This document shows positions 6,880 through 52,100 of a DNA stretch of 64,000 nt, in pieces. Source of the stretch: Owenia fusiformis (taxonomy: Eukaryota > Annelida > Polychaeta > Sabellida > Oweniidae); the NCBI GenBank assembly GCA_903813345.2, contig CAIIXF020000001.1, positions 60,593,885-60,657,884 of the forward strand, given 5' to 3'. Each line of letters opens with the position of its first letter. The first letter of the stretch is position 1. The notes under the pieces are model-generated. The model was not told the origin of the DNA. It was given only the letters and a program-made list of their open reading frames with translations, and did no database searches. Position numbers and translations under genes: made by a program.

Positions 6880-8169
6880 TCATTCTACATAATTGCCACC
6901 ATTTGCAACACATTTCTCATGTCTGGATACCCATTCCTTGAACACAGAATTAAATCCATTAGAACTCATTCCTTGTAGGGCTAGTACTACGGCATTTTTC
7001 AATTCCTCACAGGATTGAAAATTATTTCCACTAAGGTTTCCTTTTAGTTCCCCATACAAATAAAAGTCACTGGGGGCAAGATCAGGTGAATAAGGGGCAT
7101 GTTCAAGTTGTTGAAATCCAAGTGTTTGGACTGTGTTGCTGGTCAGGATTGCAGTGTGCGTAGGGGCATTGTCCCAATGCAAGATAAACTGCTGCAGATG
7201 TCCGGGACGCTTTTTCCTCAGGGAACGTTGAAGATCACGCTTCAGAACCTGAAAAACAAATGTTTAATGGTTGTTAAACCAGTTGTTTCATTGATTGGAT
7301 TTGGATTTGAATCATGGCCATGGAGTTATAATTATATTGACAGTGAACAACATTTAAATACTTTAATTTAAAAATAAAATTCACAGTATGATGTATTATT
7401 AGAACAAATGATATCTTACCTTTGCAATGTAAACGGCATTAATTCTCTGGCCAATGGGAACAAAATGGGTTAACACCATTCCTCTAATGTCAAAGAATGT
7501 CACAACCATTTGTTTCTTTTGTGGAATTCCTGGTACTATTTTAGGCTTGGTTGGTGTTGGGGAGTTGTCATGTTTCCACGATGAACTTTGTTGCCTGGTC
7601 TCTGGGATGTAGAATGATAGCAATGATTCGTCACTCGTAATGATCTTGTTAAGAAAGTCATCTCCATCTCTCCGATATTTTGCAAGAAAGTCCCTTGAAG
7701 CCTTAACACGCCGGTCTTTCTGCTCCTGTGTCAAGTCATGCGGCACCCATTTAGCAGACACCTTCTTTAACAGACAGTTCTTTGTCAGTATCCGTTGCAC
7801 AGTCCCATAGCTCAGATCGTGTTTTTCAGCCAATTCTCTGATAGAAATTTGCCTATTGTCCATAACATCAGCTTCAATTGCTTTGATGGTTTGATCATCG
7901 AATGATGACACTGGCCTGCCTCCTCGCTGCTTGTCTACCACTTCATCATATCCACTGGAATACTTGTTAAACCACCTGTAAATGTTTCTCTCAGCAATGG
8001 CAGCTTTACCATATGCCTTCTTTATCTGTCTTATAGTCTCTTTTACACCTTTCCCCAACTTTACACAGAACTTAATGTTTGTTCTTTGCTCTATTCTACT
8101 CTGACTTGGCGCCATCTTGAATTGATGATTTGCGATCACCGAATGGATTCTGTCTTTTAGTGACGTCAC
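6880..8169 (-). CDS. Mariner-family transposase, intact, one intron
   Basis: This transposase cuts and pastes the surrounding element. Exon 1 is 8169-7420 (250 codons) and exon 2 is 7248-6880, joined in phase 0 across a 171-bp GTAAGA...CAG intron (INAVYIAK|VLKRDLQ), giving 372 residues with no stop or frameshift. The N-terminus has two helix-turn-helix units (TIRQIKKAYG...NIYRWF and SIRELAEKHDLSYGTVQRIL), then the mariner WVPHDL motif. The catalytic residues are D in ITSDES, D in HWDNAPTH and D in LAPSDFYLYG, with 34 residues between the last two, which is the D34D spacing of mariner. An intron in a mariner transposase is unusual; an alternative is that the intron is a small insertion that resembles one. 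Confidence 0.9.
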
Positions 8170-8333
8170 AATTAGGTCACCCAGCTTTAGATGCTTGATT
8201 TTGAGAGATTATCTTCTATATTTCGTGCTTTATTGATTTATTTTTCTGAAAACGTTCTATTTGACTAGATCAACATTCATGCTAAGCACATACCAAGTCT
8301 AAGGTCTTACTGACATGATTTAGATAGCGGTTT

Positions 8334-20997: not shown

Positions 20998-22285
20998 TTA
21001 AGAACTCACAATGGGACATTAGATCACACGTACGTGCATAATTCACCTGATGACAATCTGCTTCTTCATATAAAGTACTAGCCAAAAGTGAACTATGAAA
21101 ATGACTTAAAAGATTGTTTCACAGATAATGAATCACTAAACTTCCTGTCACTCAATTAGAAAACCAACATGATAATAATATTTGCAAAATTTCCAATCAC
21201 ATTAATGCCAGAATTTTACAAATGCTCTGAAGTCAGGACATCAATATCTGATATTTCCCCAGAAAAATTCACTATGGTTCATTCAGCTTTCTGCAATTTT
21301 CTAAATTCCTTAATGGGAAGTGAAGTGGAAAACATGGTATGAAAAATACACTCATTCATTTCAACAATTATCGAAGGAGCCTATTATTGCACAGAATGCA
21401 CTTGTCCGTCCATCAATGAATTTATCCATCCATTGGATATATGGATTTTTGAAAAACATATTGTTAAATTTCATCAATATTATGTTTATTTCAATATTTG
21501 TCAAAAAGTGTAGTTTTATGTATAAAATGTAAATAAACGAGTATATTTTATGTATACATGTATAAATATACAAAATGGAAATATATTAATGCTCTATGAA
21601 AGATGTAACTTAACTATATTTCTTTTTTTGTTGCATATCAAAAATAAAAAATGTTTGACTGTGTTCACACCTTATATGGTTTTGGGGCTTCATGATTTTA
21701 ACAAAATCAAAGTAATATATTTAGGGAGCCACACCCATGATAAATAACACTGCCCTGAAGATTTTGAAAAAAATCTAAAAAAATTACTGAATCCATGAGT
21801 TCTCTCTAAATTGTTCAGAGGAAGCATAACGATTGTTACAGAAACCAAACTCAGATCACAGATGCAAATTACCAATCACTAAAATGTTGGAGAGTATGAC
21901 AATGTCTCACTTGCTGATAAAACCAATTTTCAAATTTTCCATGCAAGCAAGGAATCAAAAAACATAATCATTACTGATCAAATTACGCTCTTCAAACATG
22001 ATAAACAAAAGTGTCAAAACATTAATTAGAAAAATTCAATTAATTTTTCTGTCATAATGGGGTATTGTTTAAGTTTTTTTGCATGGAAAGATCAATGGAA
22101 TTATTTCAATAGGAAACACAGGTTAATGAAACCTAATTTGATTTTGGCATTCTGGTGCATTGTCAAGTAATTTATGGATTAAAATATGCCACTTTGGTTG
22201 TAAATTTGTAATACTAATTCAAATATTACCACATTGAATTCAAATTGAAATAATTCAAAAAGACTGGACATTAGATACATGTGCA
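20998..22285. other. ZMYND12 3' region and sulfotransferase upstream region
   Basis: AATAAA at about 21532 may end the ZMYND12 transcript. AT-rich; no gene recognised. Short ORFs at 21320-21573 on both strands show no coding features. Confidence 0.45.
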
Positions 22286-23836
22286 ATGCCTACCCACTCT
22301 ATGAGAACATATTCTACGATAAGAAATTACACAACATTGGTATTGGGGATTTGCATAATTTGGCTTATTATGTCTTCAGTAATGGAAAATTATTATGAAA
22401 AACGGATGCTGGCCAAAGCGCCTCCAATACACAGGAACTGGATTGAGGAATCTGAAAAGGATTACGAAGAATTGGACATTGGACCTGACATCACGATTAA
22501 GAAATATAATGATGATGATGATACCGATGAAAGTGATGTAAATGAGGATAATGATGCCAGGAATAATATTGATGAAACTGATATAAATGAGGATAGTGAT
22601 GACAGTGATGATAATGATGAAAGTGATATAAATGAGGATAGTGATGACAGCGATGATAATGATGACAGTTATGAAATTGAAGATATCGAAAAGGATTCAG
22701 ACGGAAGCCCTAACATTGAGATTGAACCAAAGTGCACTGAGGTTCAAAACGTTGTATTCTTAAAAGTTCACAAAACTGGAAGTACAACAATACAAGGGAT
22801 ATTCCAAAGATATGGTTTTGTGCGCAATCTTACATTTGCACTACCTGCCAGAAGCGTAATATGGTTCAACTATCCTAACCCCATTTTACCCTATAACATA
22901 AAACCTGCCCCAGAGGGTAAAATGTACAATGTACTGATGAACCATATGGTTTTTAATGCAACAACTCTGCATCGCGTTATGCCACCTAGCACCAAATACA
23001 TTGGGGTTCTCAGAGAGCCAATCAGGAGGCTCGATTCTGCATTCCACATGTGGAGCATTCATAAACGTCTAGGAATCAATTCAAGTAATCCAGTTGCAGA
23101 GTTCCTGTCTAATACTGATTTCTACTATGCAAAATGTGACTTTAATCCATGTTGGAGATCTAAAAATGGCATGTCCAATGATTATGGATATAACCCTAGC
23201 ATACATGCAGACATTGAAGCCTTCGTAAAACATATTGCCACTAACTTTGATATGGTGATCATACTTGAATACTTGGATGAATCCTTAGTGCTAATGAAAC
23301 GATTGTTATGTTGGTCCCTAAAAGATATCCTCTATAAAGGGTGGAAAATCAGAGGATATGGTTCAAAATTTGAAGAATACCCACCAAAAATCATTGAAAG
23401 CTCCAAAAAGTACAGTCCAGTGGATTATGCAATGTATGACCATTTTAACAAAACCCTTTGGGAAAAGATCAACTCTGAAACTGACGATTTTTACGAGGAG
23501 GTTGAACAATATAGATACATATTAGTTGAAACTATGAAGTACTGTAACAAATGCGATAGTTCTCCAATGGTTTTTGAAGCTGGGAAATTTCACGATAAAT
23601 TTGAATTAACGATTGAGGACTGTATGATGTACAAACTGCATGAAGCTAGTTTCTCCCAAGTTATCAAACACAAGCAGTATGTCAATGGATCTATGGTACT
23701 CTCTGATTTTTTCCAGGCCAAGGGCTATACTGAATGTTCTAAAACAAATTTGGAAAAGTTTGCCAATCGTTCAGGGAGTAGCTTTAATCTGTCAATGTTG
23801 GCAAATGAGGACAATTCTGAAGACTATCAAGTGTAA
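22286..23836 (+). CDS. Galactose-3-O-sulfotransferase-like, type II Golgi enzyme
   Basis: This is a Gal3ST/galactosylceramide sulfotransferase family enzyme, expected to transfer sulfate from PAPS to the 3-OH of galactose on glycolipids or glycans in the Golgi lumen. It is one uninterrupted 516-residue ORF. Residues 15-33 form a single transmembrane anchor after a short basic cytosolic tail, giving type II topology. The 5'-phosphosulfate-binding loop is at 160-172 (KVHKTGSTTIQGI) and the 3'-phosphate-binding region at 238-253 (YIGVLREPIRRLDSAF). Residues ~75-138 of the stem are extremely acidic (Asp, Ser, Asn, Glu) and contain a duplicated unit DINEDSDDSDDNDES. N-glycosylation sites are present (NLT, NAT, NSS). 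The intronless form fits a retrocopy or the single-exon families common in marine invertebrates. AATAAA lies at about 24155. The acceptor substrate cannot be told from sequence. Confidence 0.9.
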   Translation: MPTHSMRTYSTIRNYTTLVLGICIIWLIMSSVMENYYEKRMLAKAPPIHRNWIEESEKDYEELDIGPDITIKKYNDDDDTDESDVNEDNDARNNIDETDINEDSDDSDDNDESDINEDSDDSDDNDDSYEIEDIEKDSDGSPNIEIEPKCTEVQNVVFLKVHKTGSTTIQGIFQRYGFVRNLTFALPARSVIWFNYPNPILPYNIKPAPEGKMYNVLMNHMVFNATTLHRVMPPSTKYIGVLREPIRRLDSAFHMWSIHKRLGINSSNPVAEFLSNTDFYYAKCDFNPCWRSKNGMSNDYGYNPSIHADIEAFVKHIATNFDMVIILEYLDESLVLMKRLLCWSLKDILYKGWKIRGYGSKFEEYPPKIIESSKKYSPVDYAMYDHFNKTLWEKINSETDDFYEEVEQYRYILVETMKYCNKCDSSPMVFEAGKFHDKFELTIEDCMMYKLHEASFSQVIKHKQYVNGSMVLSDFFQAKGYTECSKTNLEKFANRSGSSFNLSMLANEDNSEDYQV

Positions 23837-25797: not shown

Positions 25798-28489
25798 CTA
25801 ATTACTACACAGTTTTTCAACTATCCCATTGAGTTGGTTCGTAAATGAATCAAAAGAGAACTTAGTGATAACTCTACTGTGACCCGCATTCCCCATCTTT
25901 TCACTCAGTTCAAGGTTTTCCACAAACTTCATCATCGCATCAGAAAATTCCTTTGCATTTTGATCACACAAGAATCCAGTTTCACCATCTGATACTGTTT
26001 CTAGGGGGCCTCCACTTTTTACAGCTATCACAGGGGTCCTCATATACATTGCCTCGATTGGAACAATCCCGAAATGTTCATTATGTGGCGTGTAAATCAA
26101 GCAAGTGGCGTTATGTAACAGAGACCTCTTTTGAGCATCACTAAATGATCGCAAAAATGAGACGTTATCGTTTAATCCAAGTTTCTCAGTAAGTTGACGT
26201 AATTCCAGGTAATGTTCTTTATTCTCTGCGACACGTTCATCATAACCTCCCGCCATTATTAGATGAACATCTTTTGGATCTGTCTTCCCAATCAATTCAC
26301 CTGCAATTTATGTAAATGCTTCAATATGTCTTACACAAAAAAACTACAATTTTGAGGAACAAAATCAAAAACAACAGAGTTATGTCAAAAAATAATGTGC
26401 ATTAAATAACAAGAATCCTTGTATAATTGTAATTTATTTTATAATAGTTATCTTTGAGTTTAATGTTATTCTAGTTGAAAACCCATGGTTATAACAAGGC
26501 ATCATTCATCACTTACTGCATTGTTTTTTTCTTTCAGAGTAATGCAACTTTTTAATTTTGGAATGACATTCTTATTTCTTGGTCATATTCTACATGAAAT
26601 ATTCTATTGTGTAAAAGTAAATAAAGCATATATACCCAAAGCTTCTATTGCAAGTCCAAGATTTTTCTTGCGTTCGTATCTATTGATTGACAGAAATATG
26701 ACACGCTTATTCTTCGGAATATCATCATTTTTAGTTGGCACTGGCTTGTTGAATGCTGAGAAATCAGGAATTGGATAAAGAACCTCTGGCGTGATCCAAC
26801 TGAGGCTTGTGAATGTTTCTTTGAAAACATTGGCTGCAAAAGGTTAATTAACAAAATGAATATTTACAAATCTCACATTTAGATCATACTGTACTCCAAA
26901 CTGCCACCAGTGTTTTTAAACTTTGGCAGTCATTACATGTGTATTTTGTATGTACTAAAATTGATGAAGAAGAATGAAAAAAAAAATTGTACTCCAACTA
27001 AAATTTGCAGCTATTATTTTTGCTTTTTTACGATATTGAAGTTCCGTGGCCATTAATTTTTGTCTATTTTCAGTCTGTTGAAATTTTGCAGCTAGTAATG
27101 TTCGCAGATTTGTGACTTTTCAAAAATTTCCCAGCTTCTTTTTCTAATTTCTTTGAATAAAATCTTTTAAAACCCAAAATAAATTCAATAAAATTGAATC
27201 TTCCTTTTTTTTATCAGCCAACACAGAAAAAAAATATTGTGAACATTAAATGAAATAAATTCCCCAATTATTTTTCGACTATTATATTCTGCGAATTAGA
27301 ACCATTGGAATTTTGCGAATTTTCCAAAACCCATGAGAAATGTGAAATGTTGTAGCACGCAAAAATTTCTAGGAGTACAGTACATGTATATGAGTCTTTT
27401 CAGAGCTTTAAATATGTTATGAATTTTCTTAAAATTATTTGAAACTAAATAACTAAATCAAAAAATACAGAACTTGGAACATTTTCCAATTATGCAATAA
27501 ATATAAGTGGAAGTTTTTGCCTAAAAAAGCAAACACATCTGACTAAGGTAAATAAGATATTAAATGAGCAATTATAATGGGACATTACTGATTGTTCAGG
27601 GAGAAATCTGGATGACTGTCTGGGTTTAAACATTTTTTTGATCTCACGCACAAGGATTATGCGGGTCAGGGTGAGTAAAGAAAAATTATGTGAAGCTCGC
27701 AGAATCATATATAACTTAGGACAGTGCAATATAACAAGTACTGTATATGTACTGTACTAGTTATATTGCACTGTCCTAGGTTTTATGTGATTATGCAAGT
27801 TTCACATATTTTTGTACATGTACATGTACTGTAGACTTACAGAAATTACCCAAAAATACCCAGAAATACCCCAAGTGGGCTTCCCAGAGCAGAAAGTCTG
27901 TATGTATACTCAACACACAGTAACTTAAAAAGTTCCCTGTTCAACCTTACATGAGATACCTACCTGTAAATTTACTGTTAACTAGAACGCAATGTGCCAT
28001 TCCTGTTGTTTTCTCTTCTAACCAATCAATTGGGGCCCTATACATCTTCTTCCAGAAACTCTTTCGCTGTGTGAGCAGCATGTCTGGGAAATGGCAGTAA
28101 AATAGAATTCGAGAATTTGTCCATCTAAGAACAGGAATGCATGCTGAGATTTGGTCGCAGAATATCAAATCAAACTTCATTCCACTAAATATTACTAAAT
28201 AAATGGCAGCATAAATCATACGTAAGTAGGCACACATAGCATAACATTTTCCAAATATGCTCCTTGGTAGCCAGTCCCCAGCAACAGTGACTTTAAAAGT
28301 TCCATCTTTGGTTTCAGTAAAGCAATGTGTGGGGTCATGGTGCGCTGTCAGAAATTCAACAGAGTGTCCACGAGATTTCAACGCAAGTGCTGCATCGATG
28401 ACAGCCTTTTCCGCACCTCCTATTCCAAGATCTGGATGCAAGAAGACTACATTAACCATAGTGCCCGAATCAAACGGCTCTTCAATCAA
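25798..28489 (-). CDS. ALG2: ALG2 alpha-1,3/1,6-mannosyltransferase
   Basis: ALG2 adds the second and third mannoses (alpha-1,3 then alpha-1,6) to the dolichol-linked N-glycan precursor on the cytosolic ER face. Exons in gene order: 28489-27964, 26833-26636, 26300-25798, both introns phase 1, giving 408 residues (human ~416). The N-terminal GT4 fold begins with [50 protein letters not shown] and [10 protein letters not shown] follow. The donor-sugar domain has [30 protein letters not shown] and the EX7E catalytic pair in [13 protein letters not shown], then SGGPLETV. A hydrophobic segment (YAAIYLVIF) lies near residues 100-110, as in the human enzyme. A second in-frame Met at residue 11 is an alternative start. 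Intron 2 holds little; intron 1 carries a MITE (26888-27381) and a hairpin (27716-27777). Confidence 0.96.
26888..27381. mobile_element. MITE in ALG2 intron 1, ACTGTACTCC ends
   Basis: ACTGTACTCC at 26888-26897 is the inverse of GGAGTACAGT at 27372-27381. Internally AT-rich with 'attttgcag' and 'tgtactccaact' phrases repeated. No ORF. Confidence 0.5.
27716..27777. repeat. 62-bp near-perfect hairpin in ALG2 intron 1
   Basis: Left arm AGGACAGTGCAATATAAC(A)AGTAC pairs with GTACTAGTTATATTGCAC TGTCCT on the right, one mismatch, with a short AT-rich loop. It is pre-miRNA-like in size but could be a solo palindromic MITE. Confidence 0.65.
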
Positions 28490-28736
28490 TCGTTGATGAG
28501 TAAATGATGAAATATTAAGATTTCAAAAAGTTTTGTTTTCGCCAACAAGGCGGAAGTAGGTTCTTACCTCCAGTTTGAAGATCAAAAAGTACCCATTAAA
28601 TATATTCAAGTATTTGGTCAGTTCAATTGCCCTTATTAGCTTATCGGGAAGATTAAATCAGAATATTTTGCAACAGCCGACATACATAACTTAAAAATTA
28701 ATTTATGATATAGTTTCACGGCTGCTGAAATTTCAG

Positions 28737-37124: not shown

Positions 37125-40100
37125 ATGTCATACTACGCCACAAACCCTGATGCGGATGAAATGCTTGTGTGCCCGTATGAAGATTCACACATGATCTCGG
37201 CACAGAGTTATCCACAACACGTCATAGGATGTGCCAGGGTAATATAAGAAATATTATCAGCAGCATCAATCCATATATCAATTATAAAGTATTATTTATT
37301 TGTTAACAGTTTTTAAAGCACTTTGTGATTGTGTTTATCTATACTGAATTGTTAAGTTGAAGTTAGATCATATCATGTATTGTTCTACCAAAAATATCAT
37401 TTAATATTTTCTCATTCTATTAAACAAGATCATATGATATTCTTCCATTGAATTGAATAAGATCATATGATATTCTTCCATTGAATTGAATTGAATATGA
37501 TCACATGATCATGCGGTCCTAACTTCGACCGTTAATTTGAATTTTTGACCTACCGGATGTTTGAAAATCAAGGATTACGAGTTTCATACTGCGCCGTTTT
37601 TCTTCAAACTTATTCCATTCAAAGCATAACAAAAATCCCTTTCTGATGGTACATTATTCTCTTAAACAGAGTCCCTACTTCCAGCGGCATTTTGGTCCCC
37701 AGCTGTAAGAATGCCTTCTAACACCTGGGGACCAAAATGCTGCTAGAACGAGGGACTCTTTACAATAAAGCAATGCACCGACAGAAAGACAATTTTGTTT
37801 TGCTTTTAATGGTATAGGTTTGAAGAAAAACGGTGCAGTATGAGACTCGCAATCCTTAATTTTCAAGCATCTGGTAGGTCAAAAATTCAAATTAAAGGTC
37901 GAAGTTAGGACCGCGTGATGATATTCTTCCATTGAATTGAATAAGATCATATGATATTCTTCCATTGAATTGTATAAGATCATATGATATTATTCCATTG
38001 AATTGAATATGATCATATGATATTCTTCCATTACGTTGAATAAGATCATATGATATTATTCCATTGAATTGTATAAGATCATATGATATTCTTCCATTGA
38101 ATTGTATAAGATCATATGATATTATTTCATTGAATTGTATAAGATCATATGATATTATTCCATTGAATTGTATAAGATCATATGATATTCTTCCATTGAA
38201 TTGAATAAGATCATATGATATTATTTCATTGAATTGTATAAGATCATATGATATTATTTCATTGAATTGTATAAGATCATATGATATTATTCCATTGAAT
38301 TGTATAAGATCATATGATATTATTCCATTGAATTGTATAAGATCATATGATATTATTCCATTGAATTGTATAAGATCATATCCTATTCTTCCATTGAACT
38401 GAATAAGATGATATTCTTCCATTGCATTGAATAAGATCATATGATATTTTCCCATTTTATGGAATAAAACATTATCATGTTCTCTCTCTTCTATCATATT
38501 GTATGATACAATTAGTCATACCATATTTTGCAGGCATTCCCACATATCAAACTGTTGAACTGCCCATTCAATCACCGCCACAAGTTCAGAAACAAGAAGT
38601 TGTTAGATGCGCATAAAGTCCAATGCCCACACCGGGCTGTTGTGGAGAATGAAATACTTTTTGGTAGGTGAATGCTTTGTGAAAGGATTAAAAGTTTCAA
38701 TGAGTTGTTGATTATTTGCATTATTTTTAGCTTAACAAGAATTTTTTAGAATTATGTTGATTTGGCACATATATTTAATCTCTGTATTATATGTACAGTA
38801 TACTAGTGGTAAGATTGCGATTTGAATCTAATCATTTGTAAAATAATTTCTACTGTATATTGCATGCTTTACCTTGTATATCATACTATGTAACTAATTA
38901 GCTATATCTGTATATATATTAGGTCCACTAAAACTATTGTGTGATACACACAAACTTCAAATTAGTCCTCTAAAATTGTCGTGTGATACACACATACACC
39001 GAATTGGTCCACTAACTGTGGAAGTGTAAATGCTACTATGGTAAGACTTAGCCTGTGCTGTGTTTGTGAATCTGACGGCTTACTTCATCCATAACAAACT
39101 TTGCATCACGCAGAATCAAATAGTCTCGTTGATATCTTCGAGTGTCATCTGAAGTTGTGTATCGTCTTCTCACAAATTCCATATCAACATCAGAGGAGGA
39201 ACATTCAAAGTCACCCATGTGAACTTTCAACTCAGTACAGAGTGCGTATGTGAGGTGTTCCATTTTTTTCTGGATGTTCTGCCGGATTTTACGTGCCAAC
39301 ATTTTGCTCAAGGGGTTTGAATCGGCAGCCTTTTTGTGATCTTCACGGATGAGCTTTATGAAAGCTGTGATCTTTTGTATTGCTATGTAAGACTTCTGCA
39401 GACATTCCCCAGCCTAAAACAAGACATACAATTTTGTAATAATTGAAAGTTTCATGAAAGTCTAAATAAGGGGCAAAGCAAGTCATTTAGCATTGAATGT
39501 CACTGAAAAATAAAACTAATTACCAACTTATTACCAACTAATTTACAACTAATTATCAACAATTCTGCTGGCAATTGGAATTAAAGTTAAGCGTTAATTA
39601 AATCAATGATAATTATGGCCTAATTATCAGTAGCAAGTTCAACGTAAATTAACTTACAATAATGCTGATTTATGATTTTTAGTTGATAATTAAGAAATGA
39701 AATGTTTGAGGGTGATAGTAAGTGGTAAATTAAAACGTTTTTGTTCTGAAGTAGGTTATTGGTTGATAGTTAACATATAGGATGATTATAATGATAATTA
39801 GTTGTAAATTAGGCCCATGATTTAGAAATACAAACCCCCTAAATTTAATTTCAAGATGGTGGAAAAAGAAAACATGTGAGAGATATTTCTCTCATAAAAT
39901 TGAGAATTACAACGTGAATGGTGCGTATACTACCATGAAATTTGGTCAACATTATTATAAGGGTATGTAGAACATGAATACAATGTATGTTAAATCTTAT
40001 TCACACTTCTGTCTGAAATGTTTAAAATCTTTTTGAATCAGATCATATAATATTAATCCTAGAATGCAAGTTAGGTACTGTGCTCTTCTAAATAGTGATT

Positions 40101-43100
40101 GTTAGATCAAAGACATTTCAAAGCATATTTTTGATTATATCTGTTACGTCCTTATTATGTAACATTATAGTCTAATGTTTGTGTTCTGATTTTAGTTGTT
40201 GATGGCAATAATGATGTTTTCACATGCTTTTCATGAATCTTAAAAATTTGCAAAATAGAATAGCTTTAGAAAGAGGGGGAGAAACCCCAGGGTTCAAAGA
40301 TGACATACGCTTATAATGTAAATCTGTATTGAGATGACATCGTCGCTGATTGGTTTAGCGAGTCGATTGTTGATTGGTTTAAAACTAGGTCAATTTGAAA
40401 ACTTTAAAAACCAAGATGGAGGGTACGTTTTCGACAAAAGGTGTGCGAAGGAGCAAATCGTATGTCATCAATTGAATCATGGGGTTTTCCCTCCTCTTTC
40501 TGTGAAATTTCAATAGTTCAAGTTCAATGTTGTCTGTTCTGAAAGATCCAAATTAAGATGAATATTCCGTCACAAAATAGTTCAAGATGAAGCAAAAATC
40601 TCTGAGTGAAAAAGAAGCGAGTCATTTTTGAGATGTCACAAATCTGACTTAAACCTAACTTTCAACTAATTATCAATAGTAAGTTAGGTGATAATTAGAG
40701 ATTAACTTACATCAAACTTACAACTAACTTTCAACTAATTTACGTAAATAGCTCATTTGCATATTGATGGTAGTTAATCGTTAATTAAGTTGCAAATTAA
40801 GCGTTAATTAAGTTGATAATTAGCTCATTTGCATGTGAATTTTTACACCTAACTTTCAACTAATTATCAATAGTAAGTTAGGTGATAATTGGAGATGATT
40901 TTCCATAGGCTTTTTTCAATTGGGAATTCTAAAAAAATGAATGATCAATTGGTTTCCTGTCATTTGCATAATATGCCCTTGTTTACCCACAAAGGCTTTA
41001 TTGGAGGTTATAATATATTGCCTGTGTCATCTCTTGCTTGTTCACATGATCATATCTGGCAAATAACATAGATGCGAGTAGGTAGTTACCAGTTTCACCA
41101 CCAGGTGGCTCGTTCGGGTCAGATAGCATGGCGGGTATAGAAGAAAGTTCCCTTTAACTTAAATTACAACTGTTTTAGTGGTTCAATTTTCATATAACCC
41201 TTATGTATCTAATACAAGTTAAGTAAATTAAAATATGTCCAGTAAAAGAAAATGTTATCTGTCCAATACAAGAAAAGATATTTCACTTTTTGTGATTTTG
41301 TAACATGGGGTCTATGAGGAATCAACCCGAACAAGAAGTCACATTTTCAAAAAAAAGAAAATTTCAAAATTGATAAACAACTTTCGAAACCATATTTTTA
41401 GATGTACTTTTACATGTAGATTTCAAATATGACATTACTTTGACTGAATTTTGAATATTTAATGACATAAATCAAGATTGTTTCTACTCGCATCTAGTCT
41501 ATTGATTGGATGGTGTATCAATTTAATATATGCATAATGCTCATTTATCAGCCAATAGAAAAGGATGTCAACTCCTGGCAAATTGATTGGATGGTGTATC
41601 AATTTAATATATGCATAATGCTCATTTATCAGCCAATGGGAAAGGATGTCAACTCCTGGCAAATTGATTGGATGGTGTATCAATTTAATATATGCATAAT
41701 GCTCATTTATCAGCCAATGGGAAAGGATGTCAACTCCTGGCAAATTGATTGGATGGTGTATCAATTTAATATATGCATAATGCTCATTTTTTAGCCAATG
41801 GGAAAGGATGTCAACTCCTGGCAAATTGATTGGATGGTGTATCAATTTAATATGCATAATGCTCATTTTTTAGCCAATGGGAAAGGATGTCAACTCCTTA
41901 TTAAAGTCAATCTCCTCTTCTGAAGGTATCATTATTCAGTTTCTAAAGCTTACCTGATCTGTGTCTGTAGGCAAGGACTCTCTTGGTGGAAACCCTTCCA
42001 ATGCTGGATACCCAATTCTCATAAGTCTTTGAATGACCCTTCTGGTAACCAGTCCATTCTTATGCTTCAAAATATAATTTGTTAAATCTGCTTATCATAA
42101 ATACTAAAGTTTGTGCAGTTTTAATCTTGAGTAAAAACTAAAATTTAGAAATATTTTAAGAATTTTGATTGATAAATTTATTTTATTTATTTATTTTAGC
42201 ATATCTGCATATAATACAAGGTTGAAGAAATTTAATTAAGATATATTGTACATTAAGATCAGACTGTATACTTACATATACACAATCCATAACAAGTGTT
42301 AGATTCTGACTTATTAGGAAACCCATCCTGCCAAGTGCACAAAAATCAGTGTTTTCGCTAGGTGTATCAGGACATGGTTGACTCTCCCCGTGAGAGAAAC
42401 ATTGTGCTGCTGACATAGCTGCTCCCTCTGACTGTAATGCGCCACATGCCATCCAAACAACTGGAATGATTTGTTTAAATGATAATACATGTTCTATTCA
42501 TTCTTATGATGAATTTATTTATATGAAGTGAAGAAGTATGTTATTTACTTTCATTTTAGAGTAACTTAATGTGGCAGAAAAGAAAAGGAGAGTGTTACGT
42601 GTTTCAAATTCATTTGAAACTCAAAAGGGCATTCTACGTTTTCACTTTTTTGCCAGATAATCTTAAAAATCTAGAAAATTACCATGAAATAAAGTCAGGA
42701 CAACAGGTGAATTTAGAAAAAAGGTATGATGGTACATGTACTGTACATGTATTTTAAAGTGGAATGGGATAAATCATAATTTTTCCAGTAGTGTTATTAT
42801 TTATGTTCTGTCAGTGGTTGAATCAGTCATTAATTAATCAACCTAATTTTTTGACAGAAGCGTTTCAGTTTTTGTTTTGAGTCCTCATCTAGCTATTAGC
42901 ACTCAAAAATCGTTGATGATTAAAATGTGTGCCACTAGAAACTCTTGCATGTGCTTGAGGGGTCAAGTTTTGTCATCATACTACTTAAAACTTAAAATGT
43001 ATGTTTTTGAGAAATTGTGGTTTTTCCATATTGTCAAGATCAGTATTAAAACATCCACTTCCAATCCAAAGCTTGAATACATACCAATAATTGTTAAAAT

Positions 43101-46100
43101 GGCAATCGTCCCAGACCCTGCCATGGTCAGAGATTACAGTCTAATGAAATCCTCAAAAGTTGTTTTAATGCCAAATTGTCCTGTTCTTGATTTTAATGTC
43201 TTTCTTATTCTCAAATGGCTTGTTCTTCCAAAGTGCCCATAGAATTGTTCCATGTTGCCAGACTTCACCAGCCTGGCTTATATACATGCGTTTTGGGCTC
43301 ATATCCTGCAGAAACTGAGATTAGAAGGTGCGGCTTGGAATGACAGTTGCACAGAAATATATCTGAGACGAGGAAAGGAGAAAATATGACATGGAAAGTT
43401 CTTGGAATAAAGTGTGTAGAATAACTATCAGAGTTTGAGTCTCTGACATCACAAAACCAGAGAAGTTTACATTTCCTGGATTGAATTTATTTCGATACCT
43501 CAAAATAATTATATATTGATTCGATTGGTTGTTGAAATTGACATAAGGAAGTTCTGCTTCATGTCATTTGTTTGTCAGTTTGTTTGTTTACCTGTTGGCA
43601 TTTGTTTGTGAAATTATTTTTTGGATATGCAAAGGTGTTGTCCCAAAATTCTCTCGAGTATATCTACATGATTTGTTAGGTCATTACTATATTGGCCACA
43701 TTTGGGAAGGTTTGCTGTTCACCAGTCTTTCAGTCCATGTTTGTAATTAACATGACTGGGTGCCGTTATAACACTTACACATCATGGAGTTTAGCTACAT
43801 GATTTCTGAGATCATATGGGCTTGGCCACATTTGAAAACATTAACCATCCACCATTTTCCAACTGCATGTGGGTTTCTAATGACTGGATGGCAATACAAC
43901 ATTGATGAGCTTTTGGTAAGGAGGGGGTGAATACATGCCTAACAGCCTAGATATGTTAACTTTGTATTTTCAGCTCAAAGAAAGTTTGACAGTGGAACTT
44001 ATGTGAAAGGGAACACGGATGTGCCTTCGTACCACAGAGAGGTCGAATGGCATGAATCTAAAGAGAACTGGGATGATGGTATGTAGAAAGAATGTAAAGT
44101 CACATGGCCCATTGAGGGAATTTGACAAGTACAAGCTACATGTATATTCTCAATTAAAAGAATTAAAATGTGCCATTGTCTTTTGTGTTATTGTCTAATA
44201 CAACATATTATGAGACTTAGAAAATTCTAAATTCTTCATTCAGACTATTCTAATAAGCACCCATATATGAAAGAAGTATAAAATCATTAATGACTGCTAT
44301 TGCATTATTCCATATTCATCATGACATGATGAAATGATAGAAATTATGAAAAGATTCTTCAATATAGGACCTTACTCCAACTAACATACATGTGCTTGTA
44401 GAAATCCCAGAGTTTCCTCGAATGGGTGTTGACCCTGATGTTGTAAGTGGGAGGCCAATGGGAAAGCACATCTTCAAAGACACTGCAGGGTAAGTGGAAA
44501 TAAAACATGGGTTATTCATTTGAATGAGATAAACTGTGAACATAAGATAATCCAATTAATTGAGAACACACACTTGTGGTATATTAAGTTTGAATATGAT
44601 AAACATGGGCTAATTCATTTGAATGAGATAAATGTGGGGTTATATCATTCATTTGAATGAGATAAATACAAGGTTATGCATTTGAATATGACAAACTTTT
44701 GGTAATTCATTTGAATAAGATAATCAAATTATTTGAACAATATAAGCATGTGCAGCGCCGTAGCCAGGATTTGCCAAGGGGGGTCCACTTTTTGAAAAAT
44801 TCCAGGGGGGTTCACTTGTGACAATTTTGGTCCAAAAATGGCCAAAATCACTTAAAAAGTGCTCAGAATGGTGAAAACCCACTTGTGGTATAAAGGGTTA
44901 ATTAACACGAGGACTTATAGTACATTTCTCATGTCCAAATAACAGAAACATTATGAAATATTTGAAGTTGTTAGAATAGTCTGAATGAGCAATTTAGCAT
45001 TTTCTAAGAGTCTCATAATATGTTGTATTAGAAAAAATAGTGAAAGAAATTTTCAATTCATAATAAAAAAAAGAAATATAATCTTTGATATAACTCAAAT
45101 GCTAATTGACAGATATGGTATTCATTTTATATGTCGATGCCTAGGGACAAACAAGCTCTGCTCAAGAAGGAATTTTGAAGATGGCCACTAATAATCAAAA
45201 TATGTTTTGTTTGGTTGGATTTGCTTCTCCGTGGAGTTGCTGTTTTTCTAGTTGCATTTGTCATGCTTTATATATATTTTTATCTTTGTAGTTTTATAGT
45301 TAGTTGAGTTATTCTTGTATATTGTACACTGTACCGACTAAAATGTCATTGTGATGACATCAAAGAGTTAGGAACAGGAATCAGAAAACAAAAGGGTAAC
45401 TGGTAATTCAAGGTAAGGGAAATAATAAAGGCAACAGAATATGTTTTATGTGACAAATAATTATTGTTTGTGTATTTCAAGGATGACAACAAAACAGAAG
45501 AAGGAGTTCAAGGCCAACCTGATGGCCACATTTCAAGATGAACATGATGAATACAGCGAAAACACATTGTAAGTATGCTCAGGCAAACTGTTGACCTCAA
45601 CGGAGGTTAACTGTCAGAGGGGAGGGGGTTTCAATATTTTTTTAGAACTTTGTACATAGCTACCAATAGTACCTCTCTCAGGGAATGAGCTAACCACCAA
45701 TTTATTGTGAGGTCAACAGTCAAAACTACAGACATCTGAGTCTTTGACCTATCGAAACTGAGATTCTAGAATGAGGTAATGACAGCAATATATATGATTA
45801 TGGAGGGGTTTACATTTTGAATACTATTGCTTCCTGTTTCATGTAGTCAATTTGCAATTATATACATGTATGTAAATTGTTGATAGTAATATACAAAGAT
45901 CTACACAATTCAAATAACATTATTGGTCAGAAATAGACATAAATATTCTATTATGATATTTAAATTCATATTTTATTAAAAATTCAATATTGCATCCAGT
46001 ATTTATTCATTGATACAATACCTGGTCTGTACTCTTTTTATAATATTTTATTTTAGACCAGTTGGCATGGATGCCACCCCACCCGGTGGTAACACACCAA

Positions 46101-49100: not shown

Positions 49101-52100
49101 AATATATATTTATACATTAAATAATTGTTATGAAACATTTTAGTTCATGATTAAATGCAATGGTATAATAAACTGATATAGAAAACATTTATATTTTTAT
49201 TATTCTGGGTCTCTAGAAAGACCTGCATTTCTTTTGTATCAATCATGCTGAAGTACTTCCTAGATTAGAATAGATATTAGTATTCAATTCAAGTTAAAGA
49301 GTGTCATATGCAGTTTGAATATAAGCAGTATTTACACATACCATAGTTTGAATATGCACAAGTACAGTAAAACCTGTTAAGTGGAACACCTCTGTTGTAA
49401 GTGGAACAACTTGATAGGTGGAACAATTCAAAACACTTCAATGACCTATTGACTAATTTTAAATGAACCTCTGTAAGTGGAACACCTCCTAAGTGGAAAA
49501 CATTTTAGAGGTAAAGAATGTGGTTCACTAACACATGTTTTACTAAATCACATTTTGTCTGATGAGATTACAATGTGAACATTTTTCCTTCTCTTATATT
49601 TTTCTTTGACCTTTTCTCAATACAAAACCATGCGGCACAAATGAAATAGTTTTGAAATAACCTGGCTTTAATTATTAACTAGATCTGTTATAGATTTCAC
49701 TATTCTCATGTTTGTATTGAGTCAACCTGGAGTGTAGAATGATTGGTCAATAATGAAGTGGGAGTTCAGTACCATTCAGTCTATAGATATTATTCATTTA
49801 ACCATTACTTTTAATATATTTATCCTTAAATTTAGATTACCGTTAATTTTACACTGAGCAAAATAATTAATACAACCATGGAACATTGAGGCGTTGGATT
49901 ATGGTTTGGGATAGTTGGAGTTTGATTTCCTTATGACTAGTGTACACTTAGATGGCAGGCCTGTAGTGGGGGGGGGGGGGGTTCGATGGGTTCAAACAAA
50001 CCCTAGCTATTGTGATATTGGCCATCTTTAGGCCAAAGTTGTTAAAAGTGAACCCCCTGAAATTCTGAAATTTTTCAAAATGTAAACCCCCTTGGCAAAT
50101 CCTGTCTACAGGCCTGGATGGCTTCTTTTTCTTGCGAGGCTCTGTGACAATTTTTGGTCGTTTCTCTTTGGCACTTGAGCATACATATTCATGTTCTTGT
50201 TGACATTTGACATTTTCAGGTCTTAATGGAAAGGCCAGTTTGTAGGCAATTGAGATCTTTGATTTGAAAACACCAGATTCAAGACATTTTTTCCACGTCA
50301 TCTATTTAATGACATAAATAGGCTATTGTGAAAATTATTGTTTTACTCATTGAATGTAAATGTACTAGCATAGGGCGAATAGAACAACAGAAGAGCAAAT
50401 TGAAGTATTTTAAAAAATTATCAAAATTTAAAATACCTGGCAAATTCTTGAGCACTCAGTGTAAATTGAAAACTTGAAGGAGCTATATATATTTAATTAG
50501 TATAATACCTGCAAGACTTCTTTTTGGTTCATCTTTCCAAGGTCGAGTGAATGAACGTCATTGTAGGAGTCATGTGCCGTGTGATTTACAGTAGCACACA
50601 TCAGTAAGACCTCTATGAGGATATACATCATTACTGAAATCCAAGATATCATCGTTATCATCAGAAATAAATCTTTTTGGATTTCTTCCAAGTACATAAT
50701 GTTATAAACAATCAACAGCATCACTGCGATTGGAATACCAATGCCTATCAAGTGGTAAAGTCTGAATGCTTCATCAGCGAATCCAGCGAGCTGGCATATG
50801 TCCATGTGGCGTCTTCGATGGGTCTCGATGCTACCTTTTAAACCACCGCATTCATTCAGGCATTCTCTAAAATATTTGTTGTAATTTTTGAATTCATTGT
50901 TAAGCAGCCATGTTATGGCTATGTGAAAAAGGACTCCCATTATGCATGACATGTTGACTATTGTCCCAGTTATACATACCAATACAAACTTTGCAATAAA
51001 CATATCATCTTCATTCCTCTCAAATGGTATTAAGAGTACATCGAAAACAGTGTGGTTAAACTGAACATAGGCAATAAATGAAAAGTTAATAATAACTAAT
51101 GTCCATGAAAATAAAAGTCCAATTTTTATCAGGTATTTGAATTTTCTTAGCGTTTCTTCAGAGTCTCGTCTGTAAAGTGTTTCCCATTTGTAGATGAACC
51201 CAGGGAGCCTTTCTGGCTTTGCCCAACATTTGTAAGTAATCACACATGTTATACCACAACTTATATGCCACATCATGATCATTATCTTTGTCAACAGCCC
51301 TGGCCCAAATTCATTATCTCGCATAAATGTCAACAAGAGTTTTCCAATGTTCAGCCATTGGATGACGATTAAGGCAATGCTCCAGATGCGCGAAGGAGTA
51401 AAATTACCAATTTCTTCAAGGTCGCCTTTCGCATTTTTCACCCCCCATTGTCGTTCATGGTATAGCCCACACAGCTTTAGGGTCCATAGTAATGGCTTCA
51501 TTTCTTGGAAAAGACTACTTCTATGGAATATATCTTTATTGTTATTCAGATCATAATGTTCTACCATCTCAAGGTCGTTGTCATCATAGTCTTCCAAAGT
51601 GTTTGTAGCGTCTGCTGGTGCAACTTGCACATTGAACACGCTCATCTCTGATCACGCTTCCTTTTAATTGCTGTCCTGCGTAATTGAACTCTTTATCATG
51701 CAGTGGAAACAGATTTACAATAAGAAAGCTCAAATATTTAGCTAAATCCGATGTTTTGATTTTTAATGTATTTCTGTGGCATATAACACTGCTTTCTTTT
51801 AAATAATCCAGTACTATTGTGCTTAAATTATGGGATTTTATACTTTGTAATGTTGTGTGTTATACTGTATTATACCAGTTTTCTTTATTTTATTATCATT
51901 GGTATATTTCCTTTCAATCTTCCCATATAACTGAACCATATTCTGTTATGAGAGAAATGTCCATATCCTTGTACCACTTCAACGATTATGGTAATTTCGT
52001 TAATGACCCACTAGATTATTTATGTCTAAATCATGTAACATTTATGTAAAATTTGACGTCAGTCCTGGTATGCAATTCTAATTATTTCTTTGAATGATGT

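Follow-up and report, generated by a model that had tools for sequence, protein, structure and literature searches.

A Candidate Family of Four-Helix, LIF/CNTF-Like Cytokine Genes in the Annelid Owenia fusiformis

Organization of the Gene and Coding Evidence

The window analyzed here, a stretch of 64,000 nucleotides (nt) from the early-branching annelid Owenia fusiformis (C1:60593885–60657884; 498 Mb genome in 525 contigs), was found to contain on its minus strand, at 39048–43124, a gene of four exons that encodes a 233-residue protein, probably a member of a new but unproven annelid family of four-helix cytokines that is nearer to LIF and CNTF than to IL-12. Exon 1 (43085–43124, 40 nt) contains the start codon and the first part of a signal-like stretch (MAGSGTIAILTII) and ends in a phase-1 donor. 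The remainder of this stretch, a cysteine-bearing segment and helix A with the sequon N66-L-T are encoded by exon 2 (42276–42460, 185 nt), whose donor follows Tyr75. Exon 3 (41954–42064, 111 nt) encodes the start of the A-B loop (HKNGL ... YPALEGFP), and exon 4 (39048–39413, 366 nt including the TAA stop codon) encodes helices B, C, and D. The hydrophobic, signal-like character of the N-terminus and the four amphipathic helices were recognized by eye. The exon 3 acceptor at 42064 is weak, and the use of an alternative acceptor at 42058 would reduce the exon to 105 nt. The acceptor at 42064 is favored, since exon 3 of the paralogues described below starts with LGKGL, LGNGL, or AGSLV, which align with HKNGL. 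With this acceptor we reproduced the four exons, the 233 residues and the seven cysteines downstream of the signal-like stretch that had been proposed in a first-pass annotation of the same DNA. Two tandem-repeat arrays, open in several frames and with units of about 81 bp by eye, were seen at 37895–38515 and 41459–41869, the latter inside intron 3 of the cytokine-like gene.

Codon use over the whole coding sequence scored +18.5 bits compared to a mean of −25.6 bits (standard deviation 9.7, maximum 10.0) for 4000 non-coding stretches. The intended frame had the best codon score of the three same-strand frames in each exon (joint best in exon 1), with the caveat that exons 1 and 3 each contain an opposite-strand frame of slightly higher score. 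A search among 5.8 billion proteins, run both with the whole spliced protein and with residues 109–231, gave a single relative in either case, a 128-residue "unnamed protein product" of O. fusiformis (P0001); this search requires shared five-residue words, so that failure to match elsewhere tells little. P0001 consists of the last seven residues of exon 3 followed by exon 4, which supports that junction, and starts with M where the window reads TTG (Leu). The public annotation thus covers about half of the gene and misses exons 1 and 2 and most of exon 3.

Paralogues With the Same Exon Plan

Searched with the window protein, the genome yielded seven matches, three to the window gene itself and four on other contigs (C7, C6, and two on C5). 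These four paralogues (L016–L019) showed 31–33% identity over exon 4 (E 2.2e-10 to 7.3e-6), and around each of them exons 2, 3, and 4 were found in order within approximately 10 kb. The sizes of exons 2/3/4 were 215/105/381, 224/102/339, 233/105/372, and 233/105/372, compared to 185/111/366 in the window gene. In all five members the intron phases around exons 2–4 were 1, 0, and 0, and helices B–D were encoded in one exon (exon 4), uninterrupted by an intron. A phase-1 intron followed by phase-0 introns, as described in the first-pass annotation for IL-6, IL-23 p19, and G-CSF, is therefore common to the family from exon 2 onward, and exon 1 conforms in the window gene and in three paralogues: L016, L018, and L019 have a 22-nt phase-1 exon 1 encoding MD(M/I)KFIL. 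The exon 1 of L017 is uncertain, being one of several possibilities, and exon 2 of this paralogue was built with a weaker donor (GTACAG). L018 and L019 are near copies of one another. At least five paralogues are present in O. fusiformis, and there is very little doubt that they form a real gene family.

When the four paralogues were compared with the window by tblastn, exon 4 was matched by all of them (E 1.4e-13 to 6.5e-10) and exon 3, weakly, also by all of them (E 0.005, 0.010, 0.33, and 2.0). Exon 2 was matched by none, and its inclusion was based on the multiple alignment (C34 and the N66 sequon), while that of exon 1 was based on splice signals and hydrophobicity. The lack of tblastn matches to exon 2, the weak exon 3 acceptor and the extent of P0001, which reaches only seven residues beyond exon 4 into exon 3, would fit wrongly joined exons with exon 4 alone truly coding, as in the public model. 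We consider this very improbable, as the ordered exons with the same phases in all four paralogues and the matches of all four to the window exon 3 argue against it. The exon joins proposed earlier thus hold, and P0001 agrees with them at the junction of exons 3 and 4.

Alignment of the five members showed 31 invariant columns. These include C34 ahead of helix A and N66 of the helix-A sequon (kept as N-(L/I)-(T/S) in all five). Also among them are, in the A-B loop, Y94-P95, F100-P101, and S105-L106, as well as Y121 of helix B and C171, with which helix C ends. The C-D link has D187 and M190 invariant, and helix D has R205-Y206...V219-M220; the pattern RYxRDYLI(L/F)RDxxxVM in this helix is common to all members. 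The intron after helix A directly follows Tyr in four of the five genes and lies one residue later in L017. Three paralogues contain CxxC before helix A and CC ending helix C.

Comparison With Known Cytokines

Vertebrate genes for long-chain type I cytokines have introns in phases 1-0-0, of which the phase-0 ones lie after helix A and before helix B. The coding exons of IL-6 (19/191/114/147/168), G-CSF (40/173/108/147/156), and LIF (19/179/411) resemble in size those of the window gene (40/185/111/366). The Owenia genes carry one intron more than LIF, and the intron after the helix-A Tyr is placed as in the LIF and CNTF genes. LIF contains two disulfides between the region that precedes helix A and the end of helix C; C34 and C171, present in all five members, match the LIF placement and may form one such bond, and the CxxC and CC pairs of three paralogues are reminiscent of both. 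Cytokines that bind LIFR have FxxK at the start of helix D, whereas all five Owenia members have YxRD, so that the aromatic residue is kept and the Lys lost. According to two reports, the IL-6 and G-CSF genes contain five exons (PMC5165036, PMC6389648). Their fourth intron, between helices C and D, is absent from all five Owenia genes.

In a comparison of the five-member profile with a profile of human LIF, CNTF, and CLCF1, the top alignment comprised 92 columns, in which Tyr75, Gly79, Phe100-Pro101, and Tyr121 of the family fell on Tyr67, Gly71, Phe89-Pro90, and Tyr106 of LIF. The family thus has a register in common with the LIF/OSM/CNTF/CLCF1 group at the end of helix A (Tyr then Gly), at the Phe-Pro of the A-B loop and at the helix-B Tyr. 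Of the column shuffles, 0 of 400 and 1 of 1600 brought all three places into register; the Tyr/Gly place had been fixed before the comparison and the other two were picked after seeing the alignment, so that 1/1600 is optimistic. The score itself was reached by 23 of 400 and 92 of 1600 shuffles. In a control with human proteins known to belong to the family of IL-6-type cytokines, hhalign gave 25 of 28 pairs a probability below 3%, and can therefore neither prove nor exclude kinship here. Tested singly, LIF and CNTF were in register with the family profile and CLCF1 was within four residues at helix D, whereas OSM, IL-6, G-CSF, p35, and p19 were out of register.

The Unpaired proteins, the arthropod ligands of Domeless, are invertebrate ligands of a gp130-like receptor. 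The Pfam Unpaired model (PF15972) was matched below threshold by L019 (E 0.057, 13.4 bits) and L018 (E 0.17, 11.9 bits), compared to a cut-off of 27 bits, over a part reaching from the A-B loop into helix C; neither the consensus of the family nor the remaining three members matched it. The family is perhaps related to Unpaired. The same two members matched Pfam Rad26-like_N (E 0.093 and 0.34) over 21 residues, which was taken as chance; the consensus did not match this model either.

Against a mixed G-CSF/IL-6/IL-23 profile the window protein scored 8.9 bits, which was equaled in 3 of 5000 full and 10 of 5000 block shuffles, and in hhalign the comparison with this profile beat 200 of 200 decoys. 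This result was set aside, because profiles of the single families failed to reach significance (for G-CSF, IL-6, and IL-23, respectively, 444, 213, and 2012 of 5000 full shuffles gave as high a score), an equal score was found in 435 of 5039 segment permutations, the helix-B Cys that is matched is absent from the paralogues, and the five-member profile drops that register.

In a low-confidence model of helices B–D, CNTF was the first structural match, tied upon re-alignment, and CNTF, IL-6, and LIF ranked above interferon. This modeled ranking bears on the alternative that the family consists of four-helix ligands that belong to a different branch, be it growth hormone/erythropoietin-like, interferon-like or short-chain, and not to the IL-6/LIF side. 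Human growth hormone, erythropoietin, and leptin were also out of register with the family profile, and the receptor piece described below has gp130 as its best match; we regard another branch as quite unlikely, and the LIF/CNTF/IL-6 side is favored. Weak lines of evidence place the nearest resemblance with LIF/CNTF rather than with IL-12/p19. The family was assigned to neither IL-6, LIF, nor Unpaired, because one tested feature of each is lacking.

Several results weigh against a cytokine of this kind. Profile libraries gave no significant match for the window protein, the family members or the consensus, no significant sequence match linked the family to the LIF group, and none of the five members scored above the curated cut-off of the Pfam cytokine models including IL-6 (PF00489), for which, as a yardstick, p19 itself reaches only E 0.11. 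Sequence searches of PDB gave nothing relevant. Pairwise alignments with human IL-6, p19, G-CSF, and p35 were unconvincing, the best being a global alignment with G-CSF, for which 8 of 300 shuffles scored as high. Neither the B–D model nor a single-sequence model had a Foldseek match at E ≤ 0.001, and in the VIA list no cytokine was found among the 50 matches listed for the latter. Two features given weight in the first-pass annotation were lost upon comparison: at the Cys-Leu opening of helix B, the four paralogues have S, I, S, and S in place of Cys, and none of them contains the helix-D Phe of the L-x-LR...F pattern. Besides, ferritin-like and pectinesterase-inhibitor bundles fitted the B–D model at similar Z, and helical bundles readily match one another. 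Together with the lack of significant cytokine profile matches, this would suit a cysteine-stabilized, secreted helical annelid family with a different role (as immune effector, gland protein or egg-coat protein) that has come to resemble cytokines by convergence. The three-place LIF/CNTF register and the sub-threshold Unpaired matches speak against such a family, as does a gp130-like receptor piece in the genome, which needs a ligand, and we consider it unlikely.

A gp130-Like Receptor Piece and STAT in the Same Genome

The IL6Ra-bind profile matched the genome at three places, each below the cut-off. One of them, at C1:39.125 Mb on the minus strand, reads KPVNIQC...MTCTWDIGRD...TEWTLYY, and a second frame approximately 0.9 kb downstream reads ...FGLVIEAENELGKEESEQV. 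Joined by hand, these two exons (L022/L023, C1:39.124–39.125 Mb, minus strand) had gp130 as the best match (E 1.4e-6) among 51 PDB sequences, ahead of the prolactin receptor and CRLF1, and the receptor locus read alone scored 25.7 bits against Pfam LIFR_D4, compared to a cut-off of 25. No WSxWS motif was present in the open frames of at least 40 residues in the receptor neighborhood that was fetched; the receptor gene is therefore incomplete here. A STAT gene was detected at C1:53.98 Mb (STAT_alpha E 2.0e-16). The search for a gp130/JAK-STAT receptor in the same genome, suggested with the first-pass annotation, thus yielded a gp130-like exon pair in addition to a STAT. The Owenia JAK is reported, in a 2026 survey, to be without a FERM or TyrKc domain (PMC13203501). 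A second receptor-like frame (YPKNLQCALVNATAVKCMWERPRHNYKAITHYSLYY) was observed at C9:7364505–7364648 on the minus strand (L021), with a sub-threshold match to IL6Ra-bind.

Predicted Function and Origin

Taken together, the family of the same exon plan, the gp130-like exon pair, the STAT, the LIF/CNTF register and the tied first rank of CNTF in the modeled comparison support the earlier proposal of a long-chain type I cytokine homologue; in its disfavor, no sequence test against a known family was significant, and the helix-B Cys and helix-D Phe are not conserved. We estimate a probability of about 0.7 that the window locus encodes a secreted, N-glycosylated long-chain type I four-helix cytokine related to IL-6, LIF, and CNTF that acts as follows. 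The protein would be secreted and fold as an up-up-down-down four-helix bundle, held by a disulfide between the segment before helix A and the end of helix C. It would bridge gp130/LIFR-like receptor chains, probably with the aromatic residue that opens helix D as one of the contacts, and would trigger JAK-STAT signaling. The wider proposal is that the ligands encoded by this multigene family of Owenia are truly of the gp130 type, resemble LIF/CNTF in exon plan and disulfide, and pair with a gp130-like receptor and a STAT; it appears to us slightly better than an even bet. We infer common descent of the Owenia family with the vertebrate ligands.

In the excerpts of the 2026 survey, IL-6-family cytokines are described as restricted to vertebrates, only IL6R among the receptors of the family extends to invertebrates, back to Mollusca, and the only invertebrate ligands named are insect Upd and a crustacean lectin (PMC13203501). 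We recognized no paper on an annelid ligand among the literature matches listed, and one may still be in print. If confirmed, the family would extend this ligand type far beyond vertebrates; the IL-6/LIF type would then be older than the split between protostomes and deuterostomes and would link the vertebrate IL-6 family with arthropod Unpaired. The annelid ligand-like family and the gp130-like piece provide concrete sequences for testing whether ligand and receptor are of equal age, and the same sequences allow testing of how the vertebrate ligands relate to Unpaired.

Other Features of the Window

The cytokine-like gene had been described as lying antisense in an intron. A single exon-like stretch with a good codon score was found on the plus strand (44368–44489); it had no Pfam match and is possibly an exon of an overlapping gene. 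No host gene was identified: the plus strand showed no Pfam family at E ≤ 0.1 within 43–50 kb, and between 28.6 and 43 kb it was scanned for exon-like stretches only. A single-exon 7tm chemosensory gene of the gustatory-receptor type (PF08395, E 8.2e-8) is present at 50500–51651 on the minus strand. Genes for a galactose-3-O-sulfotransferase (PF06990, E 9.5e-56) and for a group 1/4 glycosyltransferase that resembles ALG2 were found at 22238–23833 on the plus strand and at 25801–26307 and 27950–28522 on the minus strand. Transposase remains in two frames, presumably mariner-like, were recognized by eye from the list of open reading frames at 6883–8208 on the minus strand.
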